Positions 1-64,000 of a DNA stretch of 64,000 nt are shown here, one piece after another. The notes beneath the pieces were generated by a model, which saw only the letters and a program-made list of their open reading frames with translations, was not told the origin of the DNA and searched no databases. The position numbers were made by a program, and so were the translations under genes. Location of the stretch: assembly GCA_019448385.1 (NCBI GenBank), contig JAGTXO010000058.1, positions 62,001 through 126,000 on the forward strand. The letters are read 5' to 3'. The stretch's first letter is position 1; every line of letters begins with the position of its first letter. Origin of the DNA: Diacronema lutheri. Its lineage: Eukaryota; Haptophyta; Pavlovophyceae; Pavlovales; Pavlovaceae.

Positions 1-3000
1 CCCCTGCCCTTCTGCCCCCCTGCCCTTCTGCCCCCCTGCCCCCCCTGCCCTTCTGCCCTTCTGCCCCCCTGCCCTTCTGCCCCCCTGCCCTTCTGCCCCC
101 CTGCCCTTCTGCCCCCCTGCCCTTCTGCCCCCCTTCCCTTCTGCCCCCCTGCCCCCCTGCCCTTCTGCCCCCCTGCCCTTCTGCCCTTCTGCCCCCCTGC
201 CCTTCTGCCCCCCTTCCCTTCTGCCCCCCTGCCCTTCTGCCCCCCTGCCCTTCTGCCCCCCTTCCCTTCTGCCCCTCTGCCCCCCTGCCCTTCTGCCCCG
301 CTGCCCCCCTGCCCCCCTGCCCTTCTGCCCTTCTGCCCCCCTGCCCCCCCTGCCCCCCTCTGCCCCCCTCTGCCTCCCTTCCCCGCTGCCGCCTGCCCCC
401 CTGCCCCCCTGCCCTTCTGCCCCCCTGCCCCCCCTGCCCCCCTCTGCCCCCCTGCCCTTCTGCCCCCCTGCCCCCCTGCCCCCCCTGCCCCCCCTGCCCC
501 CCTGCCCCCCTGCCCTTCTGCCCCCCTGCCCCCCCTGCCCTTCTGCCCCCCTCTGCCCCCCTGCCCCCCTCTGCCCCCCTCTGCCCCCCTTCCCCGCTGC
601 CGCCTGCCCCCCTGCCCCCCTGCCCCCCTGCCCTTCTGCCCCCCTGCCCCCCCTGCCCCCCTCTGCCCCCCTGCCCCCCTGCCCCCCTGCCCCCCTGCCC
701 CCCTGCCCTTCTGCCCCCCTGCCCCCCTGCCCTTCTGCCCCCCTGCCCTTCTGCCCCCCTGCCCCCCCTGCCCCCCTCTGCCCCCCTCTGCCCCCCTGCC
801 CCCCTGCCCCCCTGCCCTTCTGCCCCCCTCTGCCCCCTTGCCCCCCTCTGCCCCCCTCTGCCCCCCTTCCCCGCTGCCCTTCTGCCCTTCTGCCCCCCCT
901 GCCCTTCTGCCCCCCTGCCCTTCTGCCCCCCTGCCCCCCCTGCCCTTCTGCCCTTCTGCCCCCCTGCCCCCCTGCCCCCCTGCCCTTCTGCCCCCCTGCC
1001 CCCCCTGCCCCCCCTGCCCCCCTGCCCTTCTGCCCCCCTGCCCCCCTGCCCCCCTGCCCCCCTGCCCTTCTGCCCCCCTGCCCCCCCTGCCCCCCTGCCC
1101 CCCTGCCCTTCTGCCCCCCTGCCCCCCTGCCCTTCTGCCCCCCTGCCCCGCTGCCCCCCTGCCCTTCTGCCCCCCTGCCCTTCTGCCCTTCTGCCCCCCT
1201 GCCCCCCCTGCCCTTCTGCCCCCCTGCCCCCCCTGCCCTTCTGCCCCCCTGCCCCCCCTGCCCTTCTGCCCCCCTGCCCCCCCTGCCCTTCTGCCCTTCT
1301 GCCCTTCTGCCCCCCTGCCCTTCTGCCCTTCTGCCCCCCTGCCCCCCTGCCCCCCTGCCCCCCTGCCCTTCTGCCCCCCTGCCCCCCCTGCCCCCCCTGC
1401 CCCCCTGCCCTTCTGCCCCCCTGCCCCCCCTGCCCCCCTGCCCCCCTGCCCTTCTGCCCCCCTGCCCTTCTGCCCCCCTGCCCCGCTGCCCCCCTGCCCC
1501 CCTGCCCTTCTGCCCCCCTGCCCTTCTGCCCTTCTGCCCCCCTGCCCCCCCTGCCCTTCTGCCCCCCTGCCCTTCTGCCCTTCTGCCCCCCTGCCCCCCT
1601 GCCCCCCTGCCCCCCTGCCCTTCTGCCCCCCTGCCCCCCTGCCCCCCTGCCCTTCTGCCCCCCTGCCCCCCCTGCCCCCCCTGCCCCCCTGCCCTTCTGC
1701 CCCCCTGCCCCCCCTGCCCTTCTGCCCTTCTGCCCTTCTGCCCCCCTGCCCTTCTGCCCTTCTGCCCCCCTGCCCTTCTGCCCCCCTGCCCTTCTGCCCT
1801 TCTGCCCCCCTGCCCCCCCTGCCCCCCTGCCCTTCTGCCCCCCTGCCCTTCTGCCCTTCTGCCCCCCTGCCCTTCTGCCCCCCTTCCCTTCTGCCCCCCT
1901 GCCCTTCTGCCCCCCTGCCCTTCTGCCCCCCTTCCCTTCTGCCCCCCTGCCCTTCTGCCCCCCTGCCCTTCTGCCCCCCTTCCCTTCTGCCCCTCTGCCC
2001 CCCTGCCCTTCTGCCCCGCTGCCCCCCTGCCCCCCTGCCCTTCTGCCCTTCTGCCCCCCTGCCCCCCCTGCCCCCCTCTGCCCCCCTCTGCCTCCCTTCC
2101 CCGCTGCCGCCTGCCCCCCTGCCCCCCTGCCCTTCTGCCCTTCTGCCCCCCTGCCCCCCCTGCCCCCCTGCCCCCCTGCCCTTCTGCCCCCCTGCCCCCC
2201 CTGCCCCCCCTGCCCCCCCTGCCCCCCTGCCCCCCTTCCCTTCTGCCCCCCTGCCCTTCTGCCCCCCTGCCCTTCTGCCCCCCTTCCCTTCTGCCCCCCT
2301 GCCCTTCTGCCCCCCTGCCCTTCTGCCCCCCTTCCCTTCTGCCCCTCTGCCCCCCTGCCCTTCTGCCCCGCTGCCCCCCTGCCCCCCTGCCCTTCTGCCC
2401 TTCTGCCCCCCTGCCCCCCCTGCCCCCCCTGCCCCCCTGCCCCCCTTCCCTTCTGCCCCCCTGCCCTTCTGCCCCCCTGCCCTTCTGCCCCCCTTCCCTT
2501 CTGCCCCCCTGCCCTTCTGCCCCCCTGCCCTTCTGCCCCCCTTCCCTTCTGCCCCTCTGCCCCCCTGCCCTTCTGCCCCGCTGCCCCCCTGCCCCCCTGC
2601 CCTTCTGCCCTTCTGCCCCCCTGCCCCCCCTGCCCCCCCTGCCCCCCTGCCCTTCTGCCCCCCTGCCCCCCTGCCCTTCTGCCCCCCTGCCCTTCTGCCC
2701 CCCTGCCCCCCCTGCCCCCCCTGCCCCCCTGCCCTTCTGCCCCCCCCTGCCCCCCTGCCCCCCTGCCCTTCTGCCCCCCTGCCCCCCTGCCCTTCTGCCC
2801 CCCTGCCCTTCTGCCCCCCTGCCCCCCCTGCCCCCCTCTGCCCCCCTCTGCCCCCCTGCCCCCCTGCCCCCCTGCCCTTCTGCCCCCCTCTGCCCCCCTG
2901 CCCCCCTCTGCCCCCCTCTGCCCCCCTTCCCCGCTGCCGCCTGCCCCCCTGCCCCCCTGCCCTTCTGCCCCCCTCTGCCCCCCTGCCCCCCTCTGCCCCC

Positions 3001-3303
3001 CTCTGCCCCCCTTCCCCGCTGCCGCCTGCCCCCCTGCCCCCCTGCCCTTCTGCCCCCCTGCCCCCCCTGCCCCCCTCTGCCCCCCTCTGCCCCCCTCTGC
3101 CCCCCTTCCCCGCTGCCGCCTGCCGCCTGCCGCCTGCCGCCCCGCCCCCTGCCCCCCTGCCCCCCTGCCCCCCTGCCCCCCCTTCCCCGCTGCCGCCTGC
3201 CGCCTGCCGCCCCGCCCCCTGCCCCCTGCCCCCCCCCCCTCCCCCCTGCCCCCTGCCCCCCCTCCCCCCTGCCCCCTGCCCGCTGCCTGCTGCGGCCGCC
3301 GCG
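1..3303. repeat. C-rich satellite lacking adenine
   Basis: Tandem array of short C-rich units of the type CTGCCCCC and CTGCCCTT, with a recurring marker CCCCTTCCCCGCTGCCGCC (for example near 375, 590, 2095, 2925, 3010 and 3105). I see no A on the + strand before position 3304. Larger blocks of about 210 bp are repeated back to back around 2215-2634, so the array has higher-order structure. It reads as a proline/leucine/cysteine-rich open frame for most of its length, which is a composition effect. It could be a subtelomeric or pericentromeric satellite or a contig-end repeat; the window gives no way to decide. Confidence 0.95.
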
Positions 3304-53724: not shown

Positions 53725-56700
53725 ATGGCGAGTCGGCTGCTGTTTTGCGCGGCAGCCCTCGCCCTCGCGTCGGGCGCGGGCGCGGCGGCGACGGGCGCGC
53801 GCGCGAGCGGCGCGCCGCTCGTTCGTGGCGTGGCGCGCCGTCTCGCGGCGCGCATGGCCGCGCCCGGCGCCGCGGGCAAGACGGTCCGCGTCGGCGTCGT
53901 CGGCGCGTCGGGCTACACGGGCGCCGAGCTCGTCCGCCTCCTCCTCTCGCACCCGCAGGCGGAGATTGCGTTCCTCTCGGCCGAGCGCTCGGCGGGCAAG
54001 CCGTATGCCGAGGTCTATCCCCAGTTCGCCCACGTCAAGGCTCTGCCCAACCTCGTGAAGCTCGAGGACGCGAGCTACGACGGCGTCGACGTCGTCTTCG
54101 CCTGCCTGCCGCACGTGCGTGCGCGCGCGCCGCGCGCCCGCGCCCACACTCGAGATCGCGAGCGTGTGCGCGCACCCGTGCGCGCGGTCCGGCCGCTCCG
54201 GGCGAGCGCGGCGCTCCGCCGCGAGCGCACGCCTCGCCGGCGCGCGCCGCGCCGCGTCGCGCGGCGTGCGCGGCTCGTGCGCCGCGCGGCGACGGCCGTG
54301 CGCCCGCCTCCAAGCACACTGTCCCTCCGCCGCCGCCACCGCCACCGCCACCGCCACCACCACCGCGCCTCCGCAGGCCATGTCACACAAGCTCGTCGCG
54401 TCCGTGCCTGCACGCTGCAAGGTGGTCGATTTGAGCGCTGACTTCCGACTGGCGGACATTCCCACTTACGAGAAATGGTCCGTCGCGTGGGAGTCGGGGG
54501 AGGGTGGGGCGGGTGGGCGGGCAGATGGGTGGGTGGGTGAGGGCGGGGGGGGGGGGGGTGGCTTGGTTACGGCCCGTGCATGTTACGCCGCGCGGGGGTG
54601 ACGCCCTCCGCCTCAATCGCGATGTTCGCTCCGTCATGCCCGTCACGCCCGCGCGCTCGCCCATCGGGCCGTGCACCCCCCCCCCCCCCCCCCTGACCTC
54701 CCCCACTTTTTATTTATTTTTATTTTTAAAAAAAACCCGCAGGTACAATGTGCCGCATGGCGCCCCTGAGCTGCAGCCCGAGGCGGTCTATGGCCTCTGC
54801 GAGCTGAACCGCGCAAAGGTGCGCCCAACGCTCCGTACGCTCGCAGCGGCGGAATTTGCACGCGCCGCGCGTCGCGTGCGCTCGTGCCGCGAAACGGCTG
54901 CCCCCCCCCCCCCCCCCCCCTTCCCTGCCCCCCCCCCCTGGCCCCCCCCCCCCCCCCCCCCCCCCCTTCCCTGCCCCCCCCCTCCCCCCCCCCTCTGCCC
55001 CCCCCCCCCCCCCCCCCTCCCCCCCCCCCCCCCCCCCCTTCCCCCGCGGCAGCTCTTGGCCGCGCAATCGCGCTCACGCGAGCGCGCGCGCACGCCACCG
55101 CGCGCGGCGCCGCGGCGGGCCCAGGTGGCGACCGCGCGCATCGTGGCCAACCCGGGCTGCTACCCAACGGCCGCGCAGCTTCCACTCGCGCCGTTACTTT
55201 CGCAGCGCCTCATTTTAAAGGAGGGGATCATTATCGACGCCAAGTCAGGCGCGACCGGCGCGGGCCGCGCGCCCAAGGAGGGGACCCTCTTCTGCGAGGT
55301 GGCGGACGGGCTCGCGCCGTACGGCATTGCCAGCCACCGGTACCACCGCGCCGCCACCTCGCCACCGCCGCGCCGCCGCCGCGCCGCGCGCTGCGCGGAC
55401 CTGCCGCGCCGCGCGCACGGCCAAGCGCGCGTCCGAGCTGGAGTTTTCATTTCATGGAGTTTTCACGTTCATGCATGTTTGAAAACCACATGGATGAACG
55501 CGTCAAGTCTCCAGGATGGCAGCCGCGCGCGCTGCGGCAATCCTGCCACCCGTCCAGCTCGGACGCCCGGCTCAGAGCGCCTGCCGCCCGTCCCCCTCCG
55601 CGCACACGTACCCGCGCCGCAGCCACCTGCCTGAGATCGAGCAAGGCTTGAGTCTGGCGGCTGGCGAGCCCGTCATGTGCACCTTCACGCCGCACTTGAT
55701 GCCCATGTCGGTGAGCGCCGCATGCTGTCTCCATCTGCTTGCATTTTGATCTACCACTCGCCACACCCAATCCAACTGACCCGCCCACCCTATCTGCTTG
55801 CACTTTGATCTGCCAATCGCCACACCCAATCCAACTGACCCGCCCACCCTATCTGCTTGCGCTTTGATCTGCCAAGCGCCACACCCAATCCAACTGACCC
55901 GCCCACCCTATCTGCTTGCACTTTGATCTGCCAATCGCCACACCCAATCCAACTGACCCGCCCACCCTATCTGCTTGCGCTTTGATCTGCCAAGCGCCAC
56001 ACCCAATCCAACTGACCCGCCCACCCTATCTGCTTGCACTTTGATCTGCCAATCGCCACACCCAATCCAACTGACCCGCCCACCCACGTACCCAACTCAA
56101 GGCGCAGTCTACGGGCGTAGCCCCCCTTCCCCCCCCCCCCCCCCCCCCCCCCTCCCCTCCCCTCCTTCTCACCCCCTCCGCCTCGGCGCTGCGCCTAGCG
56201 GCGCTGCGTGGAGTCTGGGCGCATGCGCGGTGTGTGCGGCGCTTTTGCTGCGCGCGCCGTCCGCACCGCGGCCCGCCCGCTCGTGCGTCCCCTACGCCTT
56301 AACGTCCGCTCACCCCCCCCCCCCCCCCCCCCCCCGCCATCACGCCCCCCCCCCCCCCCCCCCCCCGGCCATCACGCCGCCCCCCCGCGCCCCGCGCCGC
56401 CCCCCCGCGCCCCGCTCGAGCCCAGCGCGGGATTGAAGAGACGATCTACGTGCGCACCGCGCCCGGCGTGCGCGCGGCGCAGCTCAAGGCGGCGCTGCAG
56501 GCGCAGTACGCAAACGACGAGTTCGTGGCGATCCTCGATGGCGGCGCGGTGCCGGCGACGCGGCACGTGCGCGGCTCCAACCTGTGCACGATCAACGTGT
56601 TTGACGATCGTATTGATGGGCAAGCAATTATTATTTCGTGCATTGATAATCTGGTCAAGGGCGCGTCGGGCCAGGCGATCCAGAACATGAACATCGCGTG

Positions 56701-56749: not shown

Positions 56750-57371
56750 GCGGCTGGCCGGCGGGGGTCGTCGCGGAGCCATCAGCGCGGCGCGGTCTCG
56801 TGGGCGCGCTGCCCGAGATGGACATCTTATGCTACCGTCGTCAATCGACATCTTATGCGGCGCGGCCCTTGCCTTGCCCAGACAGCACTGAATGCACTGT
56901 CGAGAGACCACGGTCCACGGGTCCGTGCGGTGTCCGCCTTGTCACGACGTCTTGTCGGACGTCCGCGTATAGATGGTCAAGCCAAATCCGATCAGGGGCA
57001 CGATCGCGCCCCGAGTGCAGCGCGGGCCGTTCGGAAGGACGTCCTTGTGAGGGAGCTCTTCGCGTTTGGCGAGCGGGGGAGCACGACGCGCAGCGTTGCT
57101 GCGGCGGCGTGCGGGCGGCGAGCAGCGGTCGGGCTGCTCGCGACGAGGCCGGAGCAGACGGCGCCGTGGCCGCCGGCGCAGGTGACGCGCGCCGACGAGC
57201 CGTAGCGAGCGTCCGTGATCCGCACGGCGGTTGGAGCGGGCCGGCTGGTGCGGCGCGCTCGGCCACGGGTGGCGGCGTGCACGGTCGTGCCGCGCGCGGC
57301 ACGCGTCGCCAGCCGCGCGCGACCTGGGCAGAGCCCGCAAAGCGTCGACCGCTGCGCGGCTCGGCCGTGCG
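56750..57371. other. Intergenic, convergent ArgC / Fanzor-like gene
   Basis: About 620 bp with no recognised gene. It contains GACATCTTATGC twice (56821-56832, 56847-56858). Being directly downstream of the Fanzor-type reading frame, it is where a guide RNA of that system would be expected, but I can see no diagnostic structure. Confidence 0.4.
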
Positions 57372-60300
57372 TCAACGCCGGCCGCGCTTCGGCCCGCGCG
57401 CGCTGCCGCCGCCGGCACTGGCGCTGGCAGCTCCGCGGGCGGGGGTGCGGGCGCGAGAGCCGCCGCCGCCACCGCCGCCGCGCCCGCCGCCGTCGTCGCC
57501 ACCGCCGTCGCCGCCGCCGCCTCCCCCGCCGTCATCGTCGTCGTCGCCGCCGCCGCCTCCGTCGCCGTCGCCGTCACCGTCGCCCTCGCCGCCGCCGCCG
57601 TCGCCGCTGCCATCGTCGTCGTCGTCGTCGTCGCCCTCGTCGTCGCCCTCGTCGTCGCCGTCGCACTCGTCGTCGCAGTCGTCGCCCTCGCCGTGCACCA
57701 TGCGCTCCTCACGCTCCCACACCTCGCCGCGCGCCCACCAGGCGAGCACGAGGGCAAAGCGCTCAGGCGTCGACGTGGTGTCGCGCCCGGCCGCGTGCGC
57801 CGCCATGTCGTGCACGTCGTAGAAGATGTTGCGCGCGGCGTTGTAGTCGCGGTGCACGGGCTTCTTGCCGCCGTTGCACGCCGGGCAGATGACGAGCGCG
57901 TGCACCGTGCGCGTGCCGCCCTTTGCCACGGGCAGGCGCGGGTTCTGCGCGAGCTCCGCGCCGCAGCGCTGCAGCCTGCCGCCCTTGGCGAGCCGCGGCA
58001 TCGAGCAGTGCATCGACGTGTACGGCTCGGGCACGAAGACGGCCGCGACGCCGCGCCGCCGCAGCTCGCGCAGCAGCCCCACCTGGAAGGCGGGCGGCGC
58101 GCCCTTGGGCTGCGCGCCCTTGTGGTCGCGCAGCCACTTGCCCACGCACACGAGCAGCCGGTCGCGCGTCACGCCGTCGACACAGTGCGCCGCGATGAGC
58201 GCCTCGGCGACGCGCGCCGCGTTGGACCGCCCGCCGCTGTCGCGCCGCCAGCGCTCCTTCCGGCGCGCCGGCGCGTCGTACACGTGCTCGGCGGCGCGCT
58301 CGCGCACCCGCGCGCTCTCGCGGTGGAAGGCGTGGAACTCGCCCTCGCCGAGCACCTTGGCGCTGTGCGCCTCGCCAAGCCGCGCCTCGTCCGCCTCCAC
58401 GCTGAACTCCTCGCCGCGCCCGTCCTTGCGCACGCGCCGCCGCGCCGCGTTGGTCTTGGCCGTCTCGCGCGCAAAGCCCGCGGCGCGCGCGCGCGCGCGC
58501 TGCGTGAACTGCCGCCAGACGGCCGCCCGCCCGACGTGCGCAGAGTAGGTGGTGATGTTGCCCATGTTCGGGTCGGCCGCGACGACGACCGCCGCCTCGA
58601 CGTCGATCGCCCGCCGCAGCTCGGAGCCGAGCGCGACGGCGATGCGCCCGTCCGGCCGGCGCCAGCGGTGCAGGACGCCCGAGCCGCCGGCCGGCGCCTG
58701 CGCCTTCGGCACGAGGACGGTCCGACGGCGTGCACGGCGACGCCATCTGTCACCACCGACTTGACGGGCTGCCGGCCCGGGAGCGGCACGCGCGGCAGCG
58801 GCGCGAGGCCAACCCACGAGCGCCGCGCGTGCCACGGCAGATCGGCCGGCGGCCGCTCGCGCCCGGCGTAGTCGAAGACGCGGTTGGAGATGTCGAAGCG
58901 CGTCGCAAAGACCGCGTACCTGACGCGCACGTCCGACATCGGCGGGGTGTTGCCGTTTGTGCCTGTCCACTTGATCGGCTCGCCATCGTGGTCGCGCAGG
59001 TCCAGCGCCTTGAGCCGCGCGCGCAGCTCCTTGCGCTCGTCATCCGAAAGCGTCACCCAGATGGCGCTCGCGGCGAGGCGCACGTTGCGCGGCACCTGCG
59101 CGCAGCGCGCGGCGCGCGAGCGCGCGGGCGCGTGACCAACCTGGCCGCGGGGCGGCGCGCACGGCGGCGGCGCGCGCGCTTGGGCGCTCGGCGGCGGCAG
59201 CGGCAGCCACGCCTCGCGCGCACATTGTGCGTGCGCAGCGGCGCCACATTGTACCGCGGCGGCCGTCCGGTCAGCTGCGTGTGGATGTGCGCGAGCCGGC
59301 AGAGCAGCGCCTGCCCCTCGGCCACGTGCTGCAGGGTGCGGATCTGCACGAGGAAGTAGCGCGTCGTGTGCCGGTCGTAGTTCCACCTTTTCGTGGGCGT
59401 GCACTTGTAGTCGATCTTGTGGAGGACCATGTCGGGCAGGTGGCGGTCGAGCGCGGCGGGGCAGCCGACGCGCGCGCCCTCCACGTCGCCGCGCAGCAGC
59501 CGCTCGCACAGCTCGCGCACGCGCGCGTTTCGCTGCATCTCGGGCAGCGCGACGAGCGCCTCGTCGCGCTCGACTGCCGCGCGGACGACGTCGCGGAGCA
59601 GCCCGTTCACGACGCGCGATGGATGCATCAGGCACGCGGTGGACACCTGCGTCGCCTCCGCCTCGAGGATCTCCGTGAGGCCCACCGCGCAGACGGGCTG
59701 GACGCCCTCGGCCATCTCGCCGACGGCGCGCGCCGTCGCCGCCTTGGTCTGCGCGGCGGCTTGCTCGGCGGGCTTGCCTCGGGGCGCTGCACCGTACGTG
59801 CTCTCGTCCTTGTGCCAGCCGATGGCCGAGAAGATCGCACGGACGGTTCCCTTGTCCATCGTGGTCGACGTGTGCACGCTGGTCGACGGGCCGCCCGACG
59901 CCGCGCCGACGGCCTGCGCGCTCGCCACCGCAGCCTCGTCGCGCACCACCTTGTTGATGACGCGGTACGCCTGTGTCGTGAGCCTGTGCACGGCCGCCGC
60001 GATGCGCCGCAGCTCCTTCCGCGCACCGGGCTGCGCCGTCACCGCCTGCGGCCCCGCGTTGAGCGTCGAGCGCTTGACCACGAAGCCCGGGAGCACGCTG
60101 ACGCGCGTGCGCGCCGTCGCGCCGCCGGCGGCGCGCGCGCTCGGCGCAGCGGGCTCGTCCACGCGCGCGCGCTCGACGCCGCGCGCGCGGGGAACGCTCG
60201 GCGCGCGCGCGCCCGCGGCGTCGCGCGCGCTCGCGGCGGCACCCGCCGCGGCGCGCTTGCCCGCGGCGCCCGACTCGCCGTGCGCGCGAAGCGGCGCCGA

Positions 60301-63300
60301 CGCCAATGCCGACGCCGCGCCCGCGCCGCCGCTGCCGCTGCCCGATACGCCCGCGCGCCGCTTCTGCTCGTCGCGCGTCTTGCGGAACTGGGCGACGAGG
60401 TCGCTGCTCACGTTGGCCTCAGGCTCCCACGTGTCGGCGCTCTCGTCGTAGCCCCGCCACCTGATCCGGAACTGGAACGTCACCTTCTTGCCCGCCTTGC
60501 GGCGCTCGTCGACGACCGCCTCGACCTCGTACGTGCGCGCCTCCTCGTCGACGCTCGCGCCCGCCGCGCTCGCGCCCGTGTCCGGCCACCCAGCGACCGT
60601 GCCGCCCAGCCTCTCGGCGGCCGCGCGCAGCTGCCGCTCGCGCTGGGCGGCCGCGGCGCCTCGCGCGACCAGCGCGGGCAGCATGCCCGCGCCGCCCGCG
60701 AGGCCGTGCGCGCCGACGCTGGCGGTCATCAGCGCGTCGAGGCACGCGAACGTTGCGAGCGCACGCGCGCCATCGTCGCCGCCGCGCGGCTGCGAGCGCA
60801 CGACGGGCGATGGCCGCGGCTCCCCCTCGGCCGCGAGCAGCGGCCAGATCGCACTGGCCAGCGCGACGGCATGCGTGCCGACCGCGACGGCCACGTCCGC
60901 GTCGAGCGGCGCAAAGTCGTAGCGCACGAGCGCGGCCGGGCGCGAGTCGTCCGTCGGCCGGTCGGCGACGAGCAGCCCGACCGGGCGCGGCGGCTCGCCG
61001 GACGGCGCGGCGACGGGCACGCAGAGGAGCACGACGAGCAGGCGCGGCGTGCCGCCGAGCAGCGCGCGCGCGGCATCCGCCCCGTCGGCTCCGCCGCGCG
61101 CGGCCGCGGCGAGCAGCTCGGCCGCGCGCGTCGGGCCCAGCGCCGTGCGCGCGTCCTTGCGCGCGCGTGCGCGGGCCGTGTACGCGGCGCAGGCGTCGTC
61201 GAGCACCGCCGCGCTGGGCGCGGTGCCAGTCGTCGCCCACGCGCGCAGCGCGTCGCGCACCCGCGTGACGATCGCCTGGTCGACCGCCGCCTCGCCGGCA
61301 GCGTGCGCCGGCGCGCACGCCGGCGGTGCGGCGGCAGGCGCGAGCGCGGGCGCGCCGTCGGCGCCGTCAACGCCGACGGCGCCGTCGGCGCGCCGCCACG
61401 CGAGCTTCGCCTCGATCTGCTGCCGGACGGCGTGGCAGTGCCGGTCGATGCCGCGCGCGTCGTCGAGCGCGGCCAGCGCGTCCTCAGCGGCGGGACGGCC
61501 GCTCGCGTCCGCGACGGCCTGCAGGCAGAGCAGCGCGGCCGCACGCGCGTTGCACGCGCTCTGCGGCTCGGGCGCGAGCGCGAGCTCGAGCTCGAGCGGC
61601 GACGCGCCTCGCGCCGCGGCGATCGCGTCCATCAGCACGTCCAACCGCTGCACCAGCGCCCTGTGCGCGTCGCGCGGCGCGCCCGTCGACGGCGCGCGCG
61701 AGCGCGTCGCCACGAGCCCGAGCGCGCGCGCCGGCGCGCCCGCCGGCGTGTGCAGCACGAGCAGCGCCGCGCCCGCCAAGCTCGCGTTGCGCGTGACGAG
61801 CGCGAAGATGCGCGTCGCCTCGTGCGCGCCCACCGACGCCCAGATCGCAGCGCGATCGGCGTCCGTCTGCGCGTCGCACAGGTCGCGCACGTCGTCCGGC
61901 GCGAGCAGCGCGCCGCCGCCGGCGGAGCGCGCGACGATCGCCCGCGCCTCCGCCACGAAGACGGCCTGCGGCAGGTCGGCGTGGCGCGCGTCGACGATGG
62001 CGCGCGTCGCGTGCACGCCGAGCTCCACGCCGCGGTAGAAGGCGCGCGCGTTGGCCGCGCGCGCGTGCGCCGGCCGTCCGTCCGCGTTGCGCCTCGCGCG
62101 CGCCTGCTTGCTCGTGCGCGCGAGGCCGTCGCGTGGCGGTGGCGGCAGCGTGGCGAGGAAGCGCGCGGCGGGCGGCGGCGCGCGCACGCCGCGCTGCCGC
62201 CGTGCGATGGCCGCGAGCCGCCGGCCCGCCGCGCTGCCGCCCGCGCCGACGTGCTGCCGGCGGCCGAGCGCCGCCGGTGGCGGCGGCGGCGGCGGCGCGG
62301 CGGCGGGCGGCGGCGCGACGGCGGGCGGCGGCGCGGCGGCGGGCGGCGGCGCGGCGGTGGGCGGCGGCGCGGCGGCGGGCGGCGGCGCGGCGGCGGGCGG
62401 CAGCGGCGGCGGCGCGGCGGCGACGGCAGCACCAGTCGGCTTGTCCGCCCACGCACCCGAGACTCTGTCCCAGACCTTGCCCCATGGCGCGCGCCCACCG
62501 CGGCCGCGCGAACTGCCCCGGCTCGAGCGCCTGGCCGCGCTTGGCGGCGGCGGCGGCGGCAGGGGGCGGGCGGCCGGCGCGCCAGTCGAAGACAGGTGCA
62601 ACCGTGGCGGCAGGCGCCGAGTGCCGCGCGTCGGTCACAGAGCGCGTGGTGCGCGCGGCGACCGTGGCACGCCTGGCGGGCGGGCGGTGAGCAGCGCCCG
62701 CCGGCGCGCCGGCGGGCGCGGCCGCCTCGAGCCCGGCGGAGGCGCCGCGCTTGCGCTTGCGCGTGCCGCCGCGCGTGCGCCTGCGCGCGCGCCCGCCGCG
62801 CGCCCGTTCGGCCTGCGCGTCGCCAGCCGCGTCGCCGGCCGCGTCGCCGCGCCGCACGTAGACGACCGCGAACGCCTCCTCGCCGGTCCCGTCGACGCCG
62901 CCGCGCGCGCGGCGCAGGACCGACCGCCACTGCAGCCGCCGCGCGCGGCCGGGCTCGCACGCAAACCAGCGCCCACCGCGCCTGACGACGGCCACAAAGT
63001 CGTCGTCGCGCCGCCCGCGCCGGCGCGTGCGCAGCAGCACGCACTGCACGTCGAGCCAGCCCTCGTGCCAGTCGGCCGTGCTGGGGGCGACGCGAATCGA
63101 CTGCGGGAGCTCGACGCCAAAGCCGGCGAGGCGCACGATGTGCGCGACGATGACGCTCGAAATGGCGGGGGCGCTCGACGGGTCGCCCGCTGCAGCGAGC
63201 ACCGCCCCGCCCCAGTGCTCACGCGTGACGCAATCCGCGTCCTCGACGTGCACGTGCGCCACGCTCGCGCCGAGCTGGTGCAGCAACGCGCAGATGTCGG

Positions 63301-64000
63301 CGTCGACCGTCCTCTCCTCCTCGGCCGCCTCGGCCGTGCCGCGGGCGGCGGCGTCGCCTGCCGGCTGCCCGAGGTACGCGATCGCCCGCTCGACGGCCGC
63401 GCGCTCCGCACGCGCTGCGATGTCGATCGCCGCATTGCCGACGGGCGCGCGCAGCGCCGCGATCGCGTCTTGCAACGCCGTCGCGTCGCCCGTCGCCGCC
63501 GCCGCCGTCACCGCCGCCGCGCTCGCGGTGCCGTGCGCGACGGCGTGCAGCGCGGCGGCGCGCGCGGCGGGGATGCGCCCGTCCAGCGCGAGCACGAGCG
63601 GCGGCCCGGCCGGCGTCTGCTGCCGCCGGTGCCGCCGGCTCGCAGCCGGGTGGTCGGCGCGCGCGCGCTCGAGCCGCGCGCGCCGCTCGACGACGCGCGC
63701 CCAGAAGGCCTGCACCCTCGGCTGCGCGAATGCAAGCCAGCCGGCGCCGCGCGTCACGACGTGCACGACGATCCGGTCCTCGTGCCTGAGGTACTGCACG
63801 TAGAGCGCTTTGCTCACGCCGAGGACGTGCATGCCGAGCTGCAGCTGATCGCGGTGCGGCTGCGGCGGCCCGTCCTCGTGCGCCGTGGCGCCCGCCTTGG
63901 TGAGCGTCTTCACCTCGACGAGGACCTGCTCGTTGTTTTCGGGGAGGATGGCGAGCCCGTCCGGCGAGAAGGCGAACGGCGCGCTCTTGTCGTGCGGGTC
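57372..64000 (-). CDS. Fanzor-type RNA-guided nuclease fused to chromodomain and YqaJ-like nuclease (partial)
   Basis: The 5' end lies outside the window. Exon-like blocks: 64000 to about 62460, about 62240-59224, 59095 to about 58720, and the rest to 57372; over 2000 residues. Block 1 starts in a PD-(D/E)XK nuclease of YqaJ type (SPDGLAILPENNEQVLVEVK, then HRDQLQLGMHVLGVSKALYV), followed by a USP-like segment (ELPQSIRV, DDDFVAVVRRGGRWFACEPG). Block 2 has a chromodomain (TYEVEAVVDERRKAGKK, RIRWRGYDESADTWEPE; 60540-60370) and the Fanzor N-terminal half. The RuvC nuclease shows VVAADPNMGN (RuvC-I Asp), EPYTSMHCSM with RCG and VICPACN (zinc finger), and KPVHRDYNAARNIF (RuvC-III Asp). The tail is Asp/Gly-rich, ending PKRGRR, a nuclear signal. 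The 59096-59223 intron is clean; the frame changes near 62.4 kb (probable intron) and near 58.72 kb without an obvious intron. Two adjacent genes remain possible. Confidence 0.75.
62275..62405. repeat. GGCGGGCGGCGGCGC 15-bp array
   Basis: About eight copies of a 15-bp unit (GCGGCGGGCGGCGGC). In one frame it encodes AAPPP repeats; in my model it probably lies in an intron between the USP-like and chromodomain parts of the Fanzor-type gene. Confidence 0.88.

Follow-up and report, generated by a model that had tools for sequence, protein, structure and literature searches.

Does a single locus of the haptophyte Diacronema lutheri encode an RNA-guided Fanzor nuclease, a chromodomain, and a YqaJ-like nuclease on one chain, and what carries it? 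The question arises from a sequence-only reading of a 64,000-nucleotide stretch of contig JAGTXO010000058.1 (C49:62001-126000; hereafter the window), in which these three domains were proposed to be fused at positions 57372-64000 and possibly linked to a mobile element. The genome comprises 43.49 Mb in 103 contigs as analyzed here, and the available text of its publication gives 43.503 Mb, 103 contigs, and 73.25% G+C (PMC8379373). The results presented here show the locus to be the last 7.0 kb, at the 3' end, of a mobile element of 31.06 kb (window 56966-64000, minus strand), which has near-identical copies elsewhere in the genome. In the copy on contig C3 the YqaJ domain and the chromodomain share one open reading frame (ORF); the RuvC half of the Fanzor lies in another frame and likely belongs to the same protein. 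The sequence-only reading overlooked that the region forms the end of a 31 kb element, that the window copy is frame-shifted, and that the element also encodes a helicase and a ubiquitin-protease domain.

All motifs named in that reading could be placed on the minus strand in the proposed order of YqaJ part, chromodomain, and RuvC/TNB half (57372-64000). The YqaJ/RecE-like nuclease domain is represented by its C-terminal part with the SPDG, ExK, and QLQ motifs (63680-64000; the left edge is approximate and hand-mapped from the C3 copy), which includes SPDG...EVK at 63902-63967 and HRDQLQLGMHV at 63824-63856. It is followed by the chromodomain (60376-60537) and by the Fanzor C-terminal half with its acidic, Gly-rich tail (57372-59095), the latter supported by a Pfam TNB match, a four-row alignment, and a profile search of the PDB. 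The profile searches that had been proposed as a check recovered both the Chromo domain (E = 1.5e-12, 47.6 bits, cut-off 25.1) and the Cas12f1-like_TNB domain (E = 1.7e-6, 28.5 bits, slightly above the cut-off of 26.3) in the window, and the window's truncated ORF gave no match to Pfam YqaJ. The three blocks occupy three reading frames (ORFs 61484-64000, 59053-62634, and 57372-59039), and therefore no single chain can be read in the window copy. Long spurious frames are abundant at this G+C content, an antisense frame of 1,323 codons being among the ORFs listed; long ORFs thus mean little here and the claim rests on domain matches.

The RuvC half is of Fanzor type. Aligned with a Fanzor encoded on contig C1, it reached a Smith-Waterman score of 134 against a shuffled mean of 44.3, and 0 of 1000 shuffles scored as high (the same comparison with 1000 shuffles served as the significance test for both Fanzor halves). 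In an alignment with three other Fanzors of the genome (L074, L075, and L080), all four share the RuvC-I Asp, which the element carries in VVVAADPNMGN (58557-58589), a Gly at the canonical Glu position, an alternative Glu in ExYTS, and the Asp of RD(Y/F), found here in HRDYNAARN (RuvC-III, 57828-57854). Specifically, VCVGKW (58134-58157), where the canonical Glu position is lost, and VPEPYTSMHC, with the alternative Glu in VPEPYTS (58005-58040), align with VAVGDW and IDESYTSQDC of the other Fanzors, and six residues separate the alternative Glu from the first zinc-finger Cys. A repositioned Glu and a DPG motif are described as Fanzor signatures in the available text of PMC10711439. The RuvC-I motif of the element reads DPN rather than the usual DPG, as does that of Spizellomyces Fanzor1 (SpuFz1) in the profile alignment. 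Of the zinc finger named in the sequence-only reading, the second knuckle is CxxC (CPAC, 57867-57890) and the first is C-x13-C. The profile built from these four aligned Fanzors recovered SpuFz1 (E = 4.6e-8), Cas12f1 (3.4e-4), and Parasitella Fanzor1 (0.0076) from the PDB.

At least 148 TNB matches occur in the genome and most belong to the 31 kb element. Seven other matches were read: L074-L077 are alike, L079 and L080 form another family, and L078 derives from the 31 kb element, being an old deletion derivative in which the RuvC half continues, in frame, a sequence that normally precedes the chromodomain. Further Fanzor families are present, for example at C1:154701 and C86:1017843. The C1 Fanzor ORF has a long low-complexity N-terminal part, with no Pfam match in its upstream portion, and similar matches lie in frames of up to 1,779 codons.

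Evidence for the YqaJ assignment comes mainly from other copies. The YqaJ part of the C3 copy matches PHROG 434 (RecE-like exonuclease) with E = 4.1e-15 and carries what we take to be the catalytic E, D, and ExK motifs (GILGEAV, SPDG, and VEVK); the window holds the last two, and the GxxxE motif falls outside it. Pfam YqaJ scored 15.5 bits in the C3 copy, under its cut-off of 22, and 28.2 bits, over it, in the copy on contig C71 (the one that passed among the 150 scored of 203 candidates genome-wide), while NCBIfam TIGR03033 (lambda-exonuclease family) matched the C3 part at 2.2e-5, under the model cut-off. Queried against the PDB, the YqaJ part returned no relevant solved relative. The chromodomain is canonical, as had been proposed: its cage segments read TYEVE and RWRGY, and the three aromatic residues Y, W, and Y are present at what we take to be the usual cage positions. 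These cage residues alone favor the suggestion that the chromodomain may steer the element to marked chromatin.

The mobile-element link rests on copies and borders. Extension along the contig, another check proposed with the sequence-only reading, traced the element over C49:118967-150031 (31.06 kb). The 3' end lies at about window position 56966, a sharp boundary common to the aligned copies, and not at 57372, where the feature had been taken to begin; the 5' end, at C49:150031 by copy alignment, falls 24 kb past the window edge. The 4.8 kb outside the 5' end has elsewhere only short diverged matches (up to approximately 410 bases, 67-91% identity). With up to two mismatches, 203 instances of the 5' terminal sequence and 221 of the 3' terminal sequence were counted in the genome; backwards-sequence controls gave 0 matches. 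Seven other copies align with the window copy at 99.2-99.9% identity over 10-24 kb (the exception is the upstream part of the C78 copy, at 97.8%), the C49a copy is 99.5% identical over 31.1 kb, and an alignment of copies over 24.2 kb shows 99.86% identity. Such near-identity points to a recent burst of spread. When 96 5' ends (contigs C1-C46) and 100 3' ends were paired within 45 kb, 66 unique pairs totaling 1.85 Mb were obtained among the listed ends: 31 of the 66 measured 30.9-31.6 kb, 13 measured 21.3-22.2 kb, 8 measured 25.9-26.9 kb, and 9 measured 29.0-29.4 kb. Besides that at 31.0 kb, copy lengths form separate clusters near 21.5, 26.2, and 29.1 kb, which look like deletion derivatives that spread on their own.

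The element ends read TATATA... (5') and ...CTATA (3') and differ from each other. At the 5' border, CTATATAN precedes GGCGCGG at 163 places, and the 14 junctions read there were CTATATA in 13 cases and GTATATA in one; at the 3' border, CTATAC was found in 18 of the 20 distinct junctions read. No long inverted repeats, apart from the short TATA-like ends, and no AT duplication were seen at the ends read.

Whether the Fanzor is part of the YqaJ-chromodomain chain depends on a change of frame. In all eight copies fetched here a chromodomain ORF is followed by a separate Fanzor ORF. Judged by G+C content at the three codon positions, the coding frame shifts from orfA to orfB at C3:8560-8750 and from orfB, a frame of approximately 4,510 codons with the YqaJ domain and then the chromodomain, to orfC, which is the Fanzor RuvC half, at C3:21890-22060. 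Phase-0 GT...AG pairs exist at both switches, and the second is compatible with a GT-AG intron of 128-152 nt; in the window, a putative phase-0 intron (59096-59247) with GT at 59247 or 59223 and AG ending at 59096 was located by a GT/AG search with phases assigned by hand. A frameshift in place of this intron is possible. The end of orfB (59248-60108) may represent the N-terminal (WED/REC) half of the Fanzor, as a MAFFT alignment (30%) shows it to be collinear with a Fanzor1 from a different family, a resemblance at chance level in the shuffle test. The frame switch at the putative intron, together with the C1-family Fanzor being encoded in one uninterrupted ORF of 1,518 codons, suggests that the N-terminal half ends orfB, that the RuvC half is the next exon, and that YqaJ, chromodomain, and Fanzor are likely one protein. 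The proposal of a fusion on one chain thus holds for YqaJ and chromodomain, which share a frame in the C3 copy; of the 145 chromodomain places assigned to the element, at least 101 bear this out by length, each falling within a frame that stays open for 4,000 codons or more and so can reach YqaJ (150 of 260 chromodomain candidates were scored genome-wide, 149 were used, and 4 were set aside by score as other proteins). For the Fanzor, fusion is likely and unproven.

Compared with the C3 copy, the window copy itself differs by two indels in the last 7 kb, such that both the YqaJ-chromodomain ORF and the Fanzor gene are broken: one frame change lies between YqaJ and chromodomain (approximately 62450-62540) and the other within the Fanzor gene (58590-58721). 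These indels possibly come from assembly error, repeats being hard to polish, and there are other copies in the genome whose frames are intact.

The explanation that we consider somewhat better than evenly probable is a recently spread 31 kb element whose last two large frames are spliced and that combines RNA-guided cutting by its Fanzor with resection by its YqaJ nuclease and PIF1-aided copying. Proteins of the YqaJ/lambda-exonuclease kind degrade DNA from its ends, and break-induced replication is aided by Pif1 helicases. Under this model, an omega RNA would be made from the 3' untranslated end of the element (56966-57371), the place where such an RNA would be expected, with its guide taken from the right flank; this stretch has 0 substitutions relative to C3 in 11 of 12 distinct copies and 5 in one. 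The Fanzor would then be directed to the empty site, the left side of which may be marked by the CTATA motif; Fanzors are described as cutting DNA with an omega RNA beside short motifs such as CATA or TTAA in the available texts of PMC11423790 and PMC10432273. The YqaJ nuclease would resect the cut ends, the element-bearing chromosome would be copied in by break-induced synthesis with the help of PIF1, and the chromodomain may hold the enzyme on nucleosomes with a methylated lysine. A first insertion at a new place would need a transposase or recombinase, none of which was recognized in the ORFs scanned. The bolder version, in which the element spreads or persists without a classical transposase and a single chromatin-tethered protein cuts the target with its RNA guide, resects with its own exonuclease, and lets PIF1 drive the copying of 31 kb, is regarded as quite improbable.

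Several results weigh against this explanation. The profile that found SpuFz1 is made up, in three of its four rows, of other Fanzors of this genome; the RuvC part alone retrieved no Fanzor from the PDB, its Cas12f1 match (E = 0.2) ranking behind an unrelated enzyme (0.19), and the C1 Fanzor, used by itself, matches SpuFz1 at no better than E = 0.55. The frame-shifted window reading of the RuvC part found no Fanzor in the PDB either. Candidate N-terminal sequence scored at chance against the C1 and C86 Fanzors (313 and 168 of 1000 shuffles as high, respectively) and retrieved no Fanzor from the PDB. The structure predictions that had been proposed as a check gave models too poor to use (AlphaFold mean pLDDT of 41.8 for the RuvC half and 46.5 for the putative N-terminal half). 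The last 164 nt, as the presumed omega RNA, folded no better than shuffled sequence (z = -0.09; 99 of 200 shuffles fold as well), and no Rfam match was found at the element 3' end. The left and right flanks of one C30 copy, joined across a gap into a search pattern for the empty site, found no match. Substitutions between copies alter amino acids about as often as expected by chance, such that a signal of selection is absent, which we attribute to the copies being too young.

Other explanations divide the evidence differently. Motifs arising by chance in long G+C-rich frames would fit the abundance of spurious frames here, but the domain matches at E = 1.5e-12 and 4.1e-15 and an alignment with independent Fanzors far past shuffled scores make this so improbable as to be negligible. 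Two proteins, a YqaJ-chromodomain giant and a Fanzor translated from a separate transcript or from an internal start, would leave one element without one chain. The separate RuvC ORF in eight of eight copies, an intron that is predicted, an N-terminal half in the chromodomain ORF that lacks significant support, and the possibility of internal initiation within that ORF all agree with this; yet the G+C periodicity keeps the chromodomain frame up to the putative intron, and the RuvC frame upstream of that intron appears by eye to be Arg/Ala-rich, so that any N-terminal half would come from the chromodomain ORF. Two separate proteins are considered rather unlikely.

An ordinary giant DNA transposon (e.g., KDZ, PHIS/ISL2EU, Helitron, or Crypton) with a diverged transposase and the Fanzor fusion as cargo is a serious contender, its probability falling a little short of even. 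According to the available texts, ISL2EU elements encode YqaJ proteins alongside their DDE transposases (PMC4482050), Fanzor1s ride in many transposon superfamilies (PMC10711439, PMC3627910), and giant transposons of Ectocarpus can exceed 30 kb (PMC12477816). Against this, the 24 Pfam scans of element ORFs yielded no transposase, integrase, reverse transcriptase, DNA polymerase, or capsid domain (the scans covered frames of approximately 220 codons and more, except for some longer antisense frames, and took some ORFs in two copies), and neither inverted repeats beyond the short TATA-like ends nor Helitron ends were seen. A decayed or domesticated DNA virus, related to polinton-like or giant viruses and turned into a repeat, is very unlikely. 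PIF1-like helicases and YqaJ-type nucleases do occur in large DNA viruses, but no capsid, packaging ATPase, or DNA polymerase domain was found in the ORFs scanned, and the YqaJ part and the helicase had no relative in viral contigs in searches that reach close relatives only. The RuvC part alone, as a partly frame-shifted query, likewise found no viral relative; the profile gave two short IMG/VR matches (L083 and L084), and Fanzors are reported from viruses too in the available text of PMC3627910.

Comparison with known systems shows which parts are familiar. The element shares with the transposon-borne Fanzor1s SpuFz1, GtFz1, and PpFz1 the RuvC DP motif, the repositioned Glu, and the Asp in RDYN; it differs in that its Fanzor comes last in a far larger gene region that also encodes YqaJ and the chromodomain and in that its first knuckle is not CxxC. 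The Fanzor1 families on C1 and C86 have RuvC motifs that align with those of the element, whereas the C1 Fanzor lacks any interruption. ISL2EU (PHIS) also encodes a YqaJ-type exonuclease, but its autonomous elements, according to the available text of PMC4482050, average approximately 4.8 kb and have inverted repeats, AT duplications, and a DDE transposase in a separate ORF; none of these were seen here at the ends read or in the scanned ORFs. Chromodomain-bearing LTR retrotransposons (chromoviruses and algal Gypsy elements) are likewise mobile elements with a chromodomain thought to direct them to marked chromatin; here, in contrast, the chromodomain precedes a Fanzor instead of sitting on an integrase, there is no reverse transcriptase or integrase in the scanned ORFs, and there are no LTRs, the two element ends being different. 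The TATATA.../...CTATA ends also differ from the 5' TC and 3' CTRR that we take to be typical of Helitrons, and no Rep domain was found in the scanned ORFs.

A survey lists Fanzors from many transposons and from viruses, and YqaJ is not mentioned in its available text (Bao and Jurka 2013, PMC3627910). No literature was found that joins a Fanzor with YqaJ, or YqaJ with PIF1 in a eukaryotic transposon, nor was a Fanzor-chromodomain fusion found described (for example, the available text of PMC6338049 has none), in a search that lay outside most subscription journals and repeat databases. Broader literature searches, on the domain architecture and on transposons of D. lutheri, likewise showed no fitting title among the papers listed. 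Thus, while the parts are known (YqaJ in ISL2EU, Fanzor in transposons), the combination of YqaJ, chromodomain, and Fanzor appears to be new in the literature searched. A Fanzor that seems to be joined to an exonuclease and a chromatin reader, in an element with its own helicase and with ends found approximately 200 times in 43 Mb, links an RNA-guided nuclease to recombination-copying steps and renders testable the question of what Fanzors do for their transposons. Such a protein would also offer a naturally occurring model of genome editors that are directed by chromatin and coupled to repair.

The remaining genes of the element precede the YqaJ-chromodomain frame, in the order PIF1-like helicase, ubiquitin carboxyl-terminal hydrolase (UCH) domain, orfA, orfB, and orfC. 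The PIF1-like helicase is encoded in two overlapping frames (Pfam E = 3.7e-14 and 1.4e-24), and its match (L036:369-2485) crosses frames without a gap in the profile, as a frameshift, a short intron, or decay would produce. The UCH domain was matched at E = 4.3e-8 (Pfam). The 1,345 codons of orfA (L025:4871-8905) had no Pfam match and no relative in phage records; its N-terminal part resembles by eye what we take to be a cysteine protease (HW...D...Q...C order), a likeness that Pfam does not support. Nested inverted repeats rich in GGGTGTAGG lie inside the 5' part of the element (L037-L039, approximately C49:147147-148032; L038:2003-2887) and resemble a small inverted-repeat transposon that inserted there and now travels with the element in the two copies read.

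Contigs C1, C3, C5, C6, C8, C10, C12, C13, C26, C29, C32, and C49 have ends within a few bases of element ends, probably where the assembler broke contigs at the 31 kb repeat; the element family may therefore account for where this long-read assembly stops. A role at telomeres, suggested by contigs that begin at the element 3' end, was dropped, as assembly breaks at repeat borders would explain this equally well. Repeats make up 22.9% of the D. lutheri assembly, LTR elements being the largest annotated class, and the word stems transpos and telomer are absent from the available main text of the genome paper (PMC8379373). Another repeat, with 240 matches (e.g., C1:149780), often ends in GCCGTTAGTATA. 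Insertion inside this repeat was considered as a guide to duplication length and rejected; the giant element lies at or just past the end of the repeat in several copies read.

In the window, the element follows, at a distance of approximately 0.2 kb, the stop codon of a gene of the semialdehyde dehydrogenase family, which we take to be argC. A 59-bp tandem repeat in six copies (55733-56085) lies between coding stretches of this gene, probably in an intron. At the opposite end of the window, a C-rich minisatellite of approximately 3.3 kb (1-3290) consists of units like CCCCCCTGCCCTTCTG; its plus strand is almost without A, and the AT skew is -1.0 in the first 2 kb.

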